Source: Halobacteriales archaeon QS_6_71_20 (GTDB taxonomy: Archaea; Halobacteriota; Halobacteria; Halobacteriales; Haloferacaceae). Taken from it: a DNA stretch of 64,000 nucleotides. The notes below the pieces were generated by a model. That model saw only the letters and a program-made list of their open reading frames with translations, made no database searches and was not told where the DNA came from. A program made the translations under genes and the position numbers. Positions within the stretch are counted from its first letter, which is position 1; each line of letters starts with the position of its first letter. Shown here piece by piece: positions 9,240 through 46,568 of the stretch. Where the stretch lies: the NCBI GenBank assembly GCA_003020945.1, contig PXRU01000017.1, positions 62,001 to 126,000 on the forward strand, written 5' to 3'.

Positions 9240-9737
9240 GTGACCCACGGCCAGGGCGACGGCGTCGACGACGCCGCCCCGACTGCACCCGACGCTCCCG
9301 CGTCCGGCGGGGACGGGACCGACGCGGACGCTGACGCCGACGGGAACGCGGACGCCGACGGACGCGCCCTCGACCCGGCCGCCCTCGCCGATCTGGCGGC
9401 CGAGGACTGGCGCGCCGCGCTGGCGGCCGCCGGCGAACTGGAGCCGGCGATCGCCCGCGAGATCATCGACACGCACGGCGACCGCGGCCGGCGCGCCATC
9501 GAGGCGGTGTCGGAGGGCCGGGTGAAGGCGTACCGCGACTTCACCGTCGTCGTCGGCCACCGCGCCGAACACGTCGTCGAGGGCGGGGGCTGTGACTGTC
9601 AGGACGCCGCCTACAACCTCGACCCGGCGGACCCGCAGCAGCGCTGCTGGCACGCGCTCGCCGTCGACGTCGCCGAGCGCGTCGGCCGCGTCGACGACCA
9701 CGACATGTGGTACTCCGAGGTCCGGGAGTTCCTGTAG
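9240..9737 (+). CDS. SWIM zinc-finger-like protein
   Basis: 165 residues from GTG 9240. The N-terminal ~45 residues are low-complexity Asp/Ala/Gly ([14 protein letters not shown]). The core contains [20 protein letters not shown] and ends in a CxC(x)nCxH pattern, [21 protein letters not shown], fitting a SWIM-type zinc finger that could bind DNA or protein. No other domain is visible. Divergent from trm1. The true start could be further in, past the low-complexity segment. The 286 bp after the stop shows no gene. Confidence 0.75.
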
Positions 9738-13814: not shown

Positions 13815-13957
13815 TGTCGTCGTGTGGATCGGACGGCTGATAAGGGGACGGGGACCGCTCCGCCGTCGTCGCGGGCCCGACCGGTAGCTCTCCGCTGAGC
13901 GGCTCGGCCCGAGGATCTCGCCGCCGTTTGCCGAGGGCTCCCTTCGGTCGCCCTCGC

Positions 13958-20295: not shown

Positions 20296-21351
20296 GTGTC
20301 CGAGCAACTCCCGCGGGTCGACACCCTGTTCCTCCACGAGCGCGACGACGACTTCACCGTCGTCGTGAAGGGCGGCGACGAGCCGCGCCAGCCCGACCAG
20401 TTCGTCGACCTGGCGCGCTCCGCCCGGCGCATCCGCATCTCCGAGCAGACGCACACCGGCGACCGCGACCGCCTGCAGGCGATGCTGTCGGCGTACCAGC
20501 TCGACGCCAAGCAGGTGCGCACCTGCCGCTACTGTGCCGACGCCGGGCGCTACTCCCCGGTCACCTCCGACACCGCGGTGAAAGCCGACCGCGACGACAT
20601 CTGCCCCGACTGCGCGAAACGGGAGCTGGAGCGGGAGCTCTCCTACAAGGGGCAGTTCACCGGCAGCGCCCGGGAGCGCCTGGAGGACCTGCTGTTCGAG
20701 GTGCAGGACCTGGAGCGGATCACGAACCTCCTGGAGGGGAACCTCGACCCCGATCTCACGAAGTTCGACACGATCTCCGCGACGACCGACGAGGTGGACC
20801 CCGTCCGGACGGACGAGCTGACCCTCCATCCCGCGCTCCAAGAGCGGGTCGAGGGGCGCTTCGACGAGCTGCTCCCGGTCCAGAGTCTCTCGGCGCGCAA
20901 CGGGCTGTTCGACGGCGACGACCAGCTCGTGGTGAGCGCGACGGCGACCGGCAAGACGCTGGTCGGCGAGCTGGCGGGCGTGAACCGCGCGCTCAACGGC
21001 GAGGGGAAGCTCCTGTTTCTCGTCCCGTTGGTGGCGCTTGCCAACCAGAAACACGAGGACTTCGAGGAGCGCTACGGCGACGTGCTCGACGTGACCATCC
21101 GCGTGGGCGCCTCCCGGATCAACGACGACGGCAACCGGTTCGACCCGGACGCCGACGTGATCGTCGGCACCTACGAGGGGATCGACCACGGGCTCCGCAC
21201 GGGCAAGGACATGGGCGAGATCGGCACGGTCGTTATCGACGAGATCCACACCCTGAAGGAGGAGGGGCGGGGCCACCGCCTCGACGGGACGATCTCCCGG
21301 CTGAAACACTACACCGAGGAGCGCGGCTCGCCCGCCCAGTGGGTGTACCTG

Positions 21352-21450
21352 TCGGCGACCGCCCGCCCCAGCGGCGTCGGCGACAGCCCGTCGATGAACT
21401 CCCACTCCAGCAGCTTCCCGACCGCGTGGGTGGTCGGCACCTCGCCGATC
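21352..21450 (+). repeat. 99-bp inverted repeat, left copy (foreign strand inside helicase gene)
   Basis: Bases 21352-21450 are the exact reverse complement of 21981-22079. The left copy is out of place: it encodes ARPSGVGDSPSMNSHSSSF, which has no helicase character, while its minus strand encodes IGEVPTTHAVGKLLEWEF, true helicase C-terminal sequence. 99 bp is 33 codons, so the frame is kept. Confidence 0.97.
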
Positions 21451-21980
21451 TTCGACTCGACGTCCTCGAAGGGGTATCGGGGCCAGACGATCGTCTTCAC
21501 CAACTCCCGCCGCCGGTGCCACGAGATCTCCCGGAAGCTGGAGTACGACTCCGCGCCGTACCACGCGGGCCTCGACTACCGCCAGCGCAAGCGCGTCGAG
21601 CGGGAGTTCGGCGACCAGGACCTGGCGGCGGTCGTCACCACCGCCGCGCTCGCGGCCGGCGTCGACTTCCCCGCCTCGCAGGTGATCTTCGACACGCTCG
21701 CGATGGGGATCGAGTGGCTCTCGGTCCAGGAGTTCGAGCAGATGCTCGGGCGCGCGGGCCGCCCCGACTACCACGACGAGGGGACGGTGTACGTCCTCGT
21801 CGAGCCGGACGCCAGCTACCACTCCTCGATGGAGGGGACCGAGGACGAGACGGCGTTCAGGCTCCTGAAAGGGGAAATGGAGGACGTGACGACGGTGTAC
21901 GACACCGCCTCGGCGGCCGAGGAGACGCTCGCGAACGTCGTCGTCGCCGGCAAAAGCGCGAAGGCGCTCAACGATCGCAT

Positions 21981-22079
21981 GATCGGCGAGGTGCCGACCA
22001 CCCACGCGGTCGGGAAGCTGCTGGAGTGGGAGTTCATCGACGGGCTGTCGCCGACGCCGCTGGGGCGGGCGGTCGCCGA
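21981..22079 (+). repeat. 99-bp inverted repeat, right copy (native helicase sequence)
   Basis: The native copy encodes IGEVPTTHAVGKLLEWEF and IDGLSPTPLGRAVA on the + strand. It ends at GGTCGCCGA (22071-22079), exactly where the gene's 3' sequence is lost and the frame changes. 530 bases separate the two copies. Confidence 0.97.
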
Positions 22080-22133
22080 ACGAGATCGTCGCGGACATGG
22101 AGATTGCGGACAACGAGGAGCTGTAGCGCGGCG

Positions 22134-22895
22134 CTATCGCGACGGGAGCGCGTCCGTCCCGAGCGCGTCGGCCGTCCCGGTCGCGGTCCCCTCTCCGGTT
22201 CCGACGCCCTCCACGACGGGAACGTCGGCGGACCACCGGCCGGACCCCCAGTCGAGTCCGACCGTCGCGGCCTCACCGTCGCCGACGTTCCGGACGTCGA
22301 CCTCGACGGTTGCGATCGCGGTCGCGCCGTCGGCGACCTCATCGGGCGAGACGGTCGGCTCGCCCACCTCGAACACCGGCGGCGCGTTCAGGCGGTCGAT
22401 CACATCGGCCGGAAGCGCTCCGAGCGTCTCGCCGTCAAACGACAGCCGGCTGCTGTCGTGCGTGGTGTCCTTCGACGCCGCGAACGCCACGTCGGTCGTC
22501 GACGCCTCCCACGGGACCGGCTGACGCGAGGCGAACGGGGCTTCCTCGCCGTTCAGTTCGAGTCCGAACCGATCCCTGGCTTCTCGGTCGGAACGCGACG
22601 TGGTCAGGCTGACGACGACGTACCGAATCCCCGGTCGCCGGTGAACGTGCGGGTGGACTCTCGCCAGCGGGTAGATCACGAAGTCGGCGACCGATACCGA
22701 CTCGACGGACACGGGGGCGTCGGCTCCGGACCCGGTCATCGTCGCGGTGGACGTGTCCGGGTCGCTCGTCGGCGACTCCGTTCGGTTCCCGGCCCCGGGA
22801 CCATCGTCGGCGACACAGCCTGCCGTCGATCCGAGAGCCGGCAGACTTCCCAGGGCAGCGATCTGCCGTCTTCGGGACGTGGAGGGCGATCTCAC
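22134..22895 (-). CDS. Probable lipoprotein of unknown function
   Basis: 253 residues. The N-terminus has an Arg-rich segment and lipobox-like end (SRRRQIAALGSLPALGSTAGC), consistent with a TAT-exported, lipid-anchored haloarchaeal protein, although the hydrophobic stretch is short. An acidic Ser/Thr linker (PTSDPDTSTATMTG) is followed by a beta-rich domain (FEVGEPTVSPDEVADGATAI, ATVEVDVRNVGDGEAATVGL) that resembles a CARDB/Ig-like fold. It is convergent with the helicase gene, whose shifted frame overlaps it antisense. No operon partners. Confidence 0.7.
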   Translation of the reverse strand: MRSPSTSRRRQIAALGSLPALGSTAGCVADDGPGAGNRTESPTSDPDTSTATMTGSGADAPVSVESVSVADFVIYPLARVHPHVHRRPGIRYVVVSLTTSRSDREARDRFGLELNGEEAPFASRQPVPWEASTTDVAFAASKDTTHDSSRLSFDGETLGALPADVIDRLNAPPVFEVGEPTVSPDEVADGATAIATVEVDVRNVGDGEAATVGLDWGSGRWSADVPVVEGVGTGEGTATGTADALGTDALPSR

Positions 22896-24302: not shown

Positions 24303-26417
24303 ATGAGCCAGGCCGCCGAGGGACAGGACGTCGACGCCTTCCTCAGCTTCTATCGGACGTACTACAGCGACGAGATCGCGCGCCTCGCCCAGAACTACCC
24401 GAAGGAGCGCCGCTCGCTGTACGTCGAGTACGACGACCTGTACACGTACGACGCCGACCTCGCCGAGCGCTACCTCAACCGTCCGGGCGAGATGCAGGAG
24501 GTCGCCGAGGAGGCCCTCCGGACGTACGACCTCCCGGTCGACATCTCGCTGGGGCAGGCGCACGTCCGCCTCCGCACCCTCCCGCGCGAGAACACGATCG
24601 ACATCCGGGCGGTCCGCGTCAGCGACGACCACATCGGCTCGCTGGTCGCGGTCCAGGGGATCGTCCGGAAGGCGACCGACGTGCGCCCGAAGATCGTCGA
24701 GGCGGCGTTCGAGTGCCAGCGCTGCGGGACGATGACGTACATCCCGCAGAACGACTCCGGCTTCCAGGAGCCCCACGAGTGCCAGGGCTGCGAGCGACAG
24801 GGGCCGTTCCGCGTCAACAACAACGAGTCGAAGTTCATCGACTCCCAGCAGCTCCGCGTTCAGGAGTCGCCGGAGGGACTGCGCGGCGGCGAGACGCCCC
24901 AGAGCATCGACGTGAACCTGGAGGACGACGTCTGCGGGCAGGTGACCCCCGGGGACCACGTCACCGTCGTCGGCCGGCTGGAGATGGAGCAGGTGACCAG
25001 CGGCCAGGAGAAGACGACCGTCTTCGACCCGTACATGGAGGGCGTCTCGGTCGTCATCGAGGACGAGGAGTTCGAGGACATGGACATCACGGAGGCGGAC
25101 AAACGCGAGATCATCGAGCTGTCGGACGACCCCGACCTCTACGAGAAGATGATCGCGTCGGTCGCGCCCGCGATCTACGGCTACGACCAGGAGAAGCTCT
25201 CGATGATCCTCCAGCTGTTCTCCGGCGTCACCAAACATCTCCCCGACGGCTCGCGGATCCGCGGCGACCTTCACATGCTATTGATAGGGGATCCGGGAAC
25301 TGGAAAGTCCCAGCTACTGTCATACATCCAACAGATCGCGCCGCGCTCGGTGTACACCTCCGGGAAGGGCTCCTCGGCGGCGGGCCTCACCGCGGCGGCG
25401 GTTCGCGACGACTTCGGCGATGGCCAGCAGTGGACGCTCGAGGCGGGTGCACTGGTGCTGGCCGACAAGGGGATCGCGGCCGTCGACGAACTAGATAAGA
25501 TGGATAGCAGCGACCGGTCGGCGATGCACGAGGGGCTCGAACAGCAGAAGATCAGCGTCTCGAAGGCCGGGATCAACGCGACGCTGAAGGCGCGCTGCTC
25601 GCTTTTGGGGGCGGCCAACCCCAAGTACGGTCGCTTCGACCAGTACGAGCCGATCGGCGAGCAGATCGACCTAGAGCCCGCGCTCATCTCCCGGTTCGAT
25701 CTCATCTTCACCGTCACCGACAGCCCCGACCCCGAACACGACGCGCGCCTCGCGGACCACATCCTGACGACGAACTACGCGGGCGAGCTGAACACCCAGC
25801 GCGAGGAGGTCGCCACCTCGGAGTTCAGCCAGCAGGAGGTCGACAACGTGACCCGGGAGGTCGCGCCGGCCATCGAGCCGGACCTCCTGCGGAAGTACAT
25901 CGCCCACGCCAAGCGGAGCTGTTTCCCGACGATGACCGACGAGGCGAAGGAGTCGATCCGGGAGTTCTACGTCGACCTCCGGTCGAAGGGGGCAGACGAG
26001 GACGCGCCCGTCCCCGTGACCGCCCGGAAGCTGGAGGCGCTGGTGCGGCTCTCGGAGGCGAGCGCCCGCGTGCGCCTCTCGGACACCGTCGAGCCCTCCG
26101 ACGCCGACCGCGCCATCGAGATCGTCCGCTCGTGTCTGCAGGACATCGGCGTCGACCCCGAGACGGGGGAGTTCGACGCCGACGTCGTCGAGACGGGCCA
26201 GAGCAAGACCCAGCGCGACCGGATCAAGGGGATCAAGGACCTCATCCAGACGATCGCCCAGGAGTACGACGACGAACCCGGCGCGCCGGTGGACACGATC
26301 CTCGAGCGGGCCGACGAGGCCGGGATGGACGCCGAGAAGGCCGAAAAGCAGCTGGAGAAGCTTCGCACTCGCGGCGAGATCTACGAGCCGCAACAGGGCT
26401 ACGTGCGGACGACGTAG
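24303..26417 (+). CDS. mcm: MCM replicative DNA helicase
   Basis: Hexameric 3'-5' replicative helicase. 704 residues, no intein. The N-terminal domain has an OB fold and zinc finger (CQRCGTMTYIPQNDSGF ... CQGC). AAA+ core: Walker A GDPGTGKSQLLSYI, Walker B ALVLADKGIAAVDELDKM, sensor/arginine finger SRFDLIF. A C-terminal winged helix is at about residues 620-704 (LIQTIAQEYDDEPGAPVDTI; EKQLEKLRTRGEIYEP). The stop is immediately followed by the ATG of the next gene, so the downstream unknown gene is likely co-transcribed. Confidence 0.97.
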   Translation: MSQAAEGQDVDAFLSFYRTYYSDEIARLAQNYPKERRSLYVEYDDLYTYDADLAERYLNRPGEMQEVAEEALRTYDLPVDISLGQAHVRLRTLPRENTIDIRAVRVSDDHIGSLVAVQGIVRKATDVRPKIVEAAFECQRCGTMTYIPQNDSGFQEPHECQGCERQGPFRVNNNESKFIDSQQLRVQESPEGLRGGETPQSIDVNLEDDVCGQVTPGDHVTVVGRLEMEQVTSGQEKTTVFDPYMEGVSVVIEDEEFEDMDITEADKREIIELSDDPDLYEKMIASVAPAIYGYDQEKLSMILQLFSGVTKHLPDGSRIRGDLHMLLIGDPGTGKSQLLSYIQQIAPRSVYTSGKGSSAAGLTAAAVRDDFGDGQQWTLEAGALVLADKGIAAVDELDKMDSSDRSAMHEGLEQQKISVSKAGINATLKARCSLLGAANPKYGRFDQYEPIGEQIDLEPALISRFDLIFTVTDSPDPEHDARLADHILTTNYAGELNTQREEVATSEFSQQEVDNVTREVAPAIEPDLLRKYIAHAKRSCFPTMTDEAKESIREFYVDLRSKGADEDAPVPVTARKLEALVRLSEASARVRLSDTVEPSDADRAIEIVRSCLQDIGVDPETGEFDADVVETGQSKTQRDRIKGIKDLIQTIAQEYDDEPGAPVDTILERADEAGMDAEKAEKQLEKLRTRGEIYEPQQGYVRTT

Positions 26418-38657: not shown

Positions 38658-39980
38658 ATGGAGCCGAACGACGGACCCGAACCGAAGCGGCGCGACGTAC
38701 TGAGACTGTCCGGGACCGCGGGCCTCGCGGGGTTGGCGGGCCTGGCCGGCTGTAGCACGACCGACTCCGGGACGACCGAGACCGCCACCGAGACGTCGAG
38801 CGGCGACGACGGCGACGGGGGGACGACCGCCGACGACGGGGACACCGAGGACAGCGGGGAGGCCGGGCCCTACACCATCGGCATGGTCGACTCGCTGACG
38901 GGGTCGCTGTCGGCGTTCGGTCAGCGCAACCAGCGCGGGAAGGACCTCGCGCTCGCGGACGTGAACGAGGTCGGCATCGGCGGGCGCGAGCTGGAGATCG
39001 TCGTCGAGGACTCCGAGAGCCAGTCGCAGGCGGGCGTCTCGGCCGCACAGAAGCTCGTCAACCAGGACGGCGTGCCGTCGCTCATCGGCGCGGTCGGCTC
39101 GGGCGTGTCGCTGGCCATCTACGAGTCGGTGACCCAGGGGACCGACACGGTCCAGTTGAGCCAGAACTCGACGAGCCCGGACCTGACGGAGTTCCCGGGC
39201 CTGCTCCGGATGTCGCCGACGGGGGGCACGCAGTCGACGGCGCTTGCACGCATCATCGAGGAGGACGGCTACGACTCGGTCGCGCTCGCGTGGGTGAACA
39301 ACGACTACGGGCAGGGACTGGCGGAGACGTTCCGCGAGGAGTGGGGCGGGGAGATCGCCTACGACCAGCCCCACGACCAGGGGCAGTCGTCGTACTCCTC
39401 GACGGTGTCGGGGATGGCCGACTCCGGCGCGGACGCGTGGCTGTTCATCACCTACCAGCCGGAGTTCACCGCGATGGCCCAGGAGGCGTACTCCAACGGC
39501 TACGAGGCGCAGTTCTACGGCGCCGACTCCGTCCAGGGGTCGGACGTGCTGGCCGACACGCCCGAGGGGAGCCTCGACGGCATGACGATCGTCACCCCGT
39601 CGGCGGCGATCGACCAGGACAACTACCGGAGCTTCGCCTCCGAGTTCGAGTCCGAGCACGGCGACACGCCGACCTCGTGGTCGGCGTTCGCCTACGACTG
39701 CGTGGTCACGGCGGCGCTGTCGATCGCGACCGCGGACGAGTTCACCGGCGCGGCGTTACAGGAGACCGTCCGCGAGGTGACCCGTCCGGAGGGCGAGGCG
39801 GTGTTCACCTTCGCGGAGGCGATGGACGTGCTCGGCGACGACGGCGACGCCTCGGACATCGACTACCAGGGCGTCTCCGGCCCGATCGACTTCGACGAGA
39901 ACGGCGACCCGGTCGGCTTCCTGCAGATCCTCACCGTGGAGGACCACGAGTACGTCTCCTCGGGCACGATCGAAGGGTAA
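38658..39980 (+). CDS. Branched-chain amino-acid-type ABC transporter, substrate-binding lipoprotein
   Basis: 440 residues. Signal KRRDVLRLSGTAGLAGLAGL followed by AGC lipobox, then an acidic Ser/Thr/Asp linker. The periplasmic-binding-fold body is of the LivK/Leu-Ile-Val type (YTIGMVDSLTGSLSAFGQRN; GVPSLIGAVGSGVSLAIYES; VALAWVNNDYGQGLAETF; AWLFITYQPEFTAMAQEAY). It heads the operon with 7 bases to the first permease. Ligand may be branched-chain amino acids or another small organic molecule; this family is often misnamed. A TATA-like AAGTATAAGC lies about 30 bases before ATG 38658. Confidence 0.93.
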   Translation: MEPNDGPEPKRRDVLRLSGTAGLAGLAGLAGCSTTDSGTTETATETSSGDDGDGGTTADDGDTEDSGEAGPYTIGMVDSLTGSLSAFGQRNQRGKDLALADVNEVGIGGRELEIVVEDSESQSQAGVSAAQKLVNQDGVPSLIGAVGSGVSLAIYESVTQGTDTVQLSQNSTSPDLTEFPGLLRMSPTGGTQSTALARIIEEDGYDSVALAWVNNDYGQGLAETFREEWGGEIAYDQPHDQGQSSYSSTVSGMADSGADAWLFITYQPEFTAMAQEAYSNGYEAQFYGADSVQGSDVLADTPEGSLDGMTIVTPSAAIDQDNYRSFASEFESEHGDTPTSWSAFAYDCVVTAALSIATADEFTGAALQETVREVTRPEGEAVFTFAEAMDVLGDDGDASDIDYQGVSGPIDFDENGDPVGFLQILTVEDHEYVSSGTIEG

Positions 39981-44286: not shown

Positions 44287-46568
44287 TCAGTTCTCCTCGT
44301 CTCGGAGCCGTGAGGCCGGCGGGAGCTCCGACTCCGTCACCCGGTACACCGTCACGGTCGGCGTCGACGCCGCGTCAATCCGCTCGACGCCGTCGATCGA
44401 CGCGAAGTCGATCGGGCCGGACGAGCCGTAGCGCTCGCGCTCGGCGGGGCCGACCCAGACGTAGCGCACGTCGTGCTCGCGCAGCACCTCGACCGCGGCC
44501 GCCCGCGAGGTGTACGCGTCGTCGACCTGCCGTACCCGCGAGAAGTAGGCGTCCGGGCCGCGGTAGCCGACCTCGTGGTGCCAGCCGGCGACGGTCGGCA
44601 GTCCGGTCAGGCTGGCGGCGGGGCTGGCATCCCAGCGGTACATCCGCGGCGAGTGGCCGCGGGGGTTCTCGGCCCCGGGATACACCCCGGTCGCGGGCGC
44701 CGACAGCAGCGCTGGCTGACCCTCGCGGGCGTCGAGCCACTCGATCGGCCGCCGTTCGTCGGAGTGGAACGTCCCGACGAAGTGGGTGCCGTCGAGCGTC
44801 GGCTCGTCGGGGTACCGCCCGTCGACGTGCGCCGGCAGGGCGAAGGCGGCGTACATCCCCGTCGACGCGAGCAGCAGCGAGACGAACACCGCCGACGCGA
44901 CGTCGCGGGTGCCCGCGCTCGGCCACAGCGCCGCGGCGTCGGGCCGCGGCGGCGCCCGCAACAGCCCGCCGAGGACGACCCCCGCGGCCGCGGCCCACAG
45001 CGGCCACACCTGGGCGTACGTCTTGAACACGGTGTTCATCCGCCCCGGCCCGGCCTGCTCGTTCAGGAACACCAGCTCGACCAGCAGCGCGAGGCCGGCG
45101 CCGCCGACGACCAGCACCGTCTCGAAGCCGGCGCGGTCGGTCCGCAGCGCCACCCAGCCGGCGACGAGCAGCAGCCCGAACGGCGCGAGCGCGGGGAGGC
45201 CGACGGCGACGGCGGCGACCCCGAGCGCGACGGCGCCGCCGAGGACGGGCAGGGGCCGCTCGCGCCCGACCGCGCCGAACAGCCCCGCGAGGAACGTCGC
45301 CACGAACGCCCCGTGGACGAGCAGCAGCTCCCCAAGCGACGAGCGCATCCCGACGGGGAGGACGGCGAGGGAGCGCTCGCTTCCGCCGCCGCCGACCGCG
45401 CCGACCAGGAACGGCGCGGCGACCAGCAGCGCGAGCGCGCCCGCGCCGGCAACGAGCCCCGCCGCGCGGCGGGGGCGGCCGCGAGCCCCAGCCACGCCAG
45501 CCCGAGGACGCTCGGGAAGCTCCAGGTGTCGACGACCGCCTGGAAGCCGCCGACGAGCGGCATCGCCGCGAACAGGAGCAGCCGTCGACGACGGGGCTCG
45601 CCGCCGGGGGTCCGGTAGAGGGCGAACGAAAGCGCCGCCGCCAGCAGGAGGAACGGGGTCATCGTCATGTGGGCGTGCAGGTCGCCGTTGAGCCACGCGA
45701 ACAGGGGGAACTCGTTGATCGTCCCCGAGATCACGCGGCTGGCGGTCCAGTAGGAGAACTCCTCGGCGGCGACGGCCGGGTCGACCCCGAGCGCGCTCGC
45801 CAGGGACGCGCGGCTGTCCGGCGGGAGCGCGCGGAGGAGGACCCACCCGGCGGTGTGGAGGTTCGCCGCCACCCCGACGAGAGCCGCCGCAAGCAGCGCG
45901 GCCGTCCGCCGGGAGCGACCCCGACTGACGGCGACCGACCCGGCGAGGTCGTAGACGGCGGTCACGAGCATCCCGAAGAAGCCCGCGAGCGCGAGGTTGT
46001 AGCCGAACCGGGCGGGCGTGGCCGTCAGCGTCGACAGCAGCGCCGCGAGGAGGTGGCCGCCGTAGTAGTAGCGGACCGACTCCCCGGCGAACCACATGTC
46101 CTCCGGCGGGAGCGCCCCCGTCCGCAGCAGCGACTTGAGGAGGCCGTAATCGAGGAACTTCTCCCCGCCGCCGGGGCTGACGGCGGGGTCGAACGCCCGG
46201 ACCGCCACGACGAACAGGAAGGCGACGGCGAAGACGGCGGCGGTCTCGGCGAGGACGGTCCGGTCGGGGAGGCGCTCGACGGCGCCGTCGGCGACCCGGA
46301 CGTCGCCCCCGCGGAGGGCGTCGCGGTCGAGGAGGGCGACGGCCGCGAGCGCGAGCAGGAGGAGGCAGCCGGCCGCGAGCGCGACGGGACCGAACGCGAC
46401 GCGGCCCACCCAGAACCCGGCGACTCCGAGCGTCAGCGCCGAGACCGGGAGGGCGAGACCGGCACCGCGGGTGGCCGAGCGGGGGAACAGCCGGGCCGCA
46501 AGCGGGACGCCGACGGCCCCCAGCGCGAGGAGGGCGACGAGCCAGCGGGCGACGAGACCGTACTCCAT
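44287..46568 (-). pseudogene. DUF2298 multispanning membrane protein, apparent single frameshift
   Basis: The sequence from ATG 46568 to near 45465 and from there to 44287 lies in two frames that together make one DUF2298 (YYY-type) protein of about 760 residues. Frame 1 has AFDPAVSPGGGEKFLDYGLL, VRYYYGGHLLAALLSTL, NLHTAGWVLLRAL and ISGTINEFPLFAWLNGDLHA; frame 2 has MNTVFKTYAQVWPLWAAAA and WHHEVGYRGPDAYF. The shift falls in GC-rich GCCGCGCGGCGGGGCTCG, where one base appears missing. It may be a sequencing error or a true mutation. The family is a predicted glycosyltransferase-like membrane protein; neighbours here (GT2, GtrA) support a glycan role. Confidence 0.85.

Follow-up and report, generated by a model that had tools for sequence, protein, structure and literature searches.

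The draft genome analysed here carries an exact inverted repeat within a gene for a DEAD/DEAH-box helicase-like protein, and the question raised by this locus is whether the second copy was written into the chromosome of a living cell or only into the assembly. The window, that is, the whole stretch of 64 kb that was analysed, corresponds to bases 62001-126000 of contig 17 in a draft of 2,647,290 bases and 32 contigs, to which the genomes of Halobaculum are the nearest. Judging from the comparisons given below, the left arm of this repeat is very probably a fold-back (inverted chimera) artefact and not a chromosomal structure.

The repeat and the lesions of the helicase gene

The two arms (Table 1) are reverse complements over 99 nt (99/99 identical) with 530 nt between them, as described in the first-pass annotation. 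This is far beyond chance: with the threshold for exact inverted matches set at 20 nt, the 64-kb window yields just two more pairs, each of 20 nt, whose partners lie 11.7 and 54.7 kb apart. Orthologues of the helicase (E < 1e-70) were found in 37 of 39 relatives, the two genomes lacking one being drafts with a completeness of 78% and 59%. The assembled reading frame, 20296-22524, stays open to 22524, and a TAG at 22124-22126 ends the conserved C-terminal codons in a frame other than that of the assembled ORF.

Table 1. Coordinates of the helicase locus in the window and of the other inverted repeats in the sampled part of the draft
Feature	Position	Strand	Remarks
DEAD/DEAH-box helicase-like gene as assembled	20296..22126	+	Pfam DEAD and Helicase_C; alignment with nine relatives
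90 bp missing (30 codons, in frame)	20366..20367	.	against 9/9 aligned relatives
Left arm, inverted 99-bp copy	21352..21450	+	first 9 bases TCGGCGACC also native there
Core between the arms, 530 bp	21451..21980	+	native helicase sequence, normal orientation
Right arm, native helicase C-terminal sequence	21981..22079	+	collinear with 9/9 relatives
65 bp missing, frame-shifting	22079..22080	.	against 9/9 relatives; abuts the right arm on its outer side
Conserved last helicase codons	22080..22126	+	out of frame with the preceding part (alignment)
Contig 11 inverted repeat	L135:15240-15472		two 99-bp arms, exact reverse complements, separated by 35 N
Contig 1 inverted repeat, unmarked (no N)	L155:2238-2406 (contig 1, 82238-82406)		arms of 70 bp
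Start of contig 17 (the window's own contig)	L177:1-59		inverted 59-bp copy from base 1
Start of contig 27	L148:1-51		inverted 51-bp copy from base 1
Contig 1 inverted repeat, 45 bp	L279:11604-11648 / 13912-13956		exact arms of 45 bp

The helicase was aligned with nine relatives from nine genomes (L039-L043, L012, L014, L016 and L020), a subset of a larger fetched set, which was the check recommended in the annotation; it revealed the left copy as foreign and, in addition, two further losses in the gene that the annotation does not mention. The core is, like the right arm, collinear with the nine relatives, in agreement with the reading of the right copy as native, and it occurs at one place in its own genome according to an own-genome search. 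The left copy is indeed out of place, because after the TCGGCGACC of the SAT codons, which is native at this site in the relatives, the remaining 90 bp stand where all nine have 144 bp of different sequence. A different sequence had thus been rightly expected there, its length having been put at about 50 residues. Also as annotated, a short inverted match at the SAT codons, 9 bp in length (TCGGCGACC at 21352-21360 against GGTCGCCGA at 22071-22079), contains the outer left junction; at the inner junction, 21450/21451, no homology was found. The change from 144 to 90 bp keeps the frame, both lengths being multiples of three. The left arm does read through 33 codons with no stop, but this is unremarkable at this base composition (probability of no stop of about 0.56), and the in-frame readthrough was consequently rejected as a sign of selection.

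The 90-bp loss upstream of the arms was found independently against all five congeners in a frameshift scan of the window, which returned seven clusters seen by at least three of the five congeners, those seen by all five being 20367, 21396-21451 and 45415-45480. With each of three congeners as the subject instead, the scan returned one, one and four clusters that at least three of four supported. The lesion at 22079 was missed by the scan and found in the alignment; the 65 bp lost there put the conserved C-terminus of the helicase into another frame.

Between the window and the nine relatives, the intact parts of the helicase differ by 0.05-0.14 at codon position 1, 0.04-0.10 at position 2 and 0.22-0.33 at position 3; the corresponding values for five pairs of relatives are 0.03-0.05, 0.02-0.04 and 0.18-0.27, so that the first two positions have changed slightly more in the window gene than among the pairs. 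Given the excess of differences at third positions, purifying selection is still visible in these intact parts, and an old pseudogene is disfavoured (0.22-0.33 at position 3 against 0.04-0.14 at positions 1 and 2).

Inverted copies elsewhere in the draft genome

The draft was sampled over about 1.73 Mb (65%), including all 64 contig ends, and six exact inverted repeats of at least 40 bp were found within the sampled stretches. Three of the six sit at a contig start or an N gap, which is very unlikely by chance according to a hand estimate, as the 100 bp beside ends and gaps make up only about 0.5% of the sample. The process is not a general one in this draft, since the other 62 of the 64 contig ends and 11 of the 12 distinct N gaps that were examined have no such long inverted copy.

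In contig 11, the arms on the two sides of the N gap have the same length as those of the window, the copy to the left of the gap being collinear in all six relatives compared and the right copy matching in inverted orientation only. In the longer of the two repeats of contig 1, the end of one gene passes through the inverted match CGACCCCGAACTG into the beginning of the following gene, copied in inverted orientation. At this place, all nine relatives carry a promoter-like block (a label given here) containing CCTTAGTAC as well as a start codon, and the copy replaces the stop, the promoter-like block and the start codon between two genes that are conserved in 9/9 relatives. Its anatomy is the same as that of the window, with an inverted match at the left junction, the inverted copy next to it and no N.

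The copies with which contigs 17 and 27 open have their source sequence 0.2-0.5 kb inward, and in both contigs the collinear match is lost or of low identity in the first bases in the five relatives compared for each. At the start of contig 17, all five match the interior at 88-92% identity, and in one pairwise view the sequences agree poorly up to about base 60 and are nearly identical beyond it. At the start of contig 27, the match begins at base 41 in four of the five relatives and at base 56 in the other.

Two sets of controls, 332,005 bases from five congeners and 618,952 bases from 80 haloarchaeal loci, contained no exact inverted repeats of at least 40 bp; their longest had 30-32 bp, two of these being self-palindromes. 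Set against this zero count in 0.95 Mb, the six repeats found in about 1.73 Mb of the draft amount to only a modest excess (a Poisson value of about 0.04, estimated by hand), and these controls, with few contig ends and with 80 loci of about 8 kb each, represent contig interiors only. The argument for an artefact rests on the positions of the repeats.

Origin of the inverted copy

Here it is proposed that three short stretches of the helicase (90, about 144 and 65 bp) had low coverage or were not resolved. The piece at 21451-22079 would have had unresolved stretches on both sides, with its right end stopping at 22079, and at the left break the assembler would have been given the nearby end of this downstream piece as an inverted copy, to which the upstream piece could be joined via the 9-bp match TCGGCGACC. 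The break at 22079, like the other breaks, would have been closed silently, with no N, and the 65-bp loss would begin exactly at the end of the arm because the copied piece held no data beyond 22079. Such a course presumably involved coverage dropouts, chimeric reads or a graph error, and the length of 99 bp shared by two places suggests the word (k-mer) length of the assembly or the read length. The chimera may have originated in whole-genome amplification, in library preparation or in the assembler.

The artefact, which the annotation had itself named as the alternative, is in all likelihood the correct reading on the sequence comparisons. It is favoured by the start of the 65-bp loss at the end of the arm (22079/22080), which under the other readings would be a coincidence, and by the copy across the 35-N gap of contig 11 with its identical arm length of 99. 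It is also favoured by the inverted copies with which contigs 17 and 27 begin at base 1, where the match to relatives is poor, and by the case in contig 1, where with the same anatomy a conserved promoter-like block and start codon are lost. The controls without exact inverted repeats of at least 40 bp argue in the same direction, as does the presence of three lesions in a helicase that is nevertheless widely orthologous and under purifying selection in its intact parts. An artefact of this type should be a nearly or fully identical inverted copy of sequence from within a few kb, with short complementarity at the junction; the copy in the window is identical at 99/99 positions, lies 530 bp from its source and has the 9-bp match, and similar copies recur at breaks in coverage (2/64 contig starts or ends and 1/12 distinct N gaps), with one more inside contig 1. 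The inner junction without homology and the slightly raised change at codon positions 1 and 2 relative to the five congener pairs count against the artefact, as do the many contig ends and N gaps that lack such a copy and the modest size of the excess over the controls.

Inverted chimeras with deletions and short complementarity, as the main class of chimeras in amplification, further favour this origin. According to Lasken and Stockwell (2007; PMC1855051), inverted chimeras with intervening deletions account for 85% of 475 chimeras in one amplification study, and complementarity was found in 93.5% of inverted cases under 10 kb. The chimeras of multiple displacement amplification described there share the short complementarity at the junction, of 9 bp in the window. 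Unlike them, the window returns to the original strand at a second junction and has lost sequence separately at the end of the arm, features for which an assembly step is needed beyond a possible amplification chimera. Similarly, the hairpin library artefacts described by Star et al. (2014; PMC3946424) are interrupted palindromes, formed by single-strand fold-back in library preparation; those artefacts, however, occur within single reads of historic DNA, whereas the arms of the window are 99 bp long and 530 bp apart. A search for literature on inverted repeats of assemblies at contig ends found nothing relevant.

The annotation had suggested template switching through a short inverted homology. 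In such an event in vivo, a fork or break end would have paused at the SAT codons, switched strand near 22079, run backwards for about 90-99 bases and then returned, the gene later decaying with two deletions. Short-range template switching is a described class of mutation in which, as in the window, an inverted copy of nearby sequence is entered via a short inverted match, and both the 9-bp inverted match exactly at the outer junction and the preserved frame of the left site (144 to 90 bp) agree with it. However, similar copies recur at contig ends and an N gap, and the loss in the window abuts the arm, neither of which is expected from such mutations. The 65-bp loss would require that a second event struck the very same base, the gene, which has orthologues in 37/39 relatives, carries two other lesions, and the third-position excess in the intact parts speaks against an old pseudogene. 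Entry and exit are not set in otherwise unchanged sequence either, 65 bp being gone beyond the template arm and 90 bp elsewhere. With two further lesions, one of them shifting the frame at the end of the arm, and with similar copies elsewhere in the draft, an in vivo template-switch product in a working gene is not supported, and the template switch is considered improbable. The same slight chance is given to its more specific form, a recent switch in a living Halobaculum cell that would have replaced 48 conserved codons in a core helicase by 30 codons copied in inverted orientation from its C-terminal region, in a lineage prone to fold-backs. If real, the locus would show cleanly how a template switch can rewrite a conserved helicase.

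Exact repeats longer than the word length of an assembly break contigs, and real inverted repeats can break assemblies in this way at the repeat ends. A real inverted repeat could therefore be the cause of the ends and gaps and not the reverse. This is very improbable here, because one copy replaces or interrupts conserved sequence in the window, contig 11 and contig 1, and relatives match the copies that open contigs 17 and 27 weakly or not at all. Moreover, arms of 51 and 59 bp start contigs at base 1, while arms of 70 and 99 bp broke no contig.

A phase-variable element, in which the identical 99-bp arms recombine across their 530-bp spacing and flip the core to turn the helicase off and on, is scarcely credible and was rejected: the left-arm sequence is absent from 9/9 aligned relatives, the syntenic stretches of all five nearby congeners have no inverted repeat of at least 30 bp, and the assembled gene is frame-shifted already. 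Inversion of the core, which the annotation had thought possible, was not observed in the own-genome search, where the core was found once, in a single assembled sequence. A mobile element was rejected as well: neither direct repeats nor element genes were found at the arms, and exact direct repeats anywhere in the window reach 22 bp at most.

With the fold-back artefact as the preferred reading, the locus serves as a caution: in draft genomes, an exact inverted repeat within a conserved gene can be an error that is unmarked by N and carries hidden losses beside it. Surveying contig ends and gaps for inverted copies offers an inexpensive means of recognizing it.

Other sites in the window and the draft

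In the window, an assembled gene has an unmarked loss at 45458-45459, of about 94-154 bp and with a frame shift against 5/5 congeners, in a stretch whose length varies among the congeners. A one-base frame shift was seen at 39973 against three of the five congeners. In contig 18, an exact direct repeat of 100 bp (L141:8803-8902 / 9535-9634), with copies 732 bp apart, is possibly a related error; three of ten congeners had any match, none of them covering the repeat usefully. The MCM gene of the window has, at 25305-25308, a point where some congeners carry 0.5 to 2 kb extra, possibly an intein that is absent in the window.
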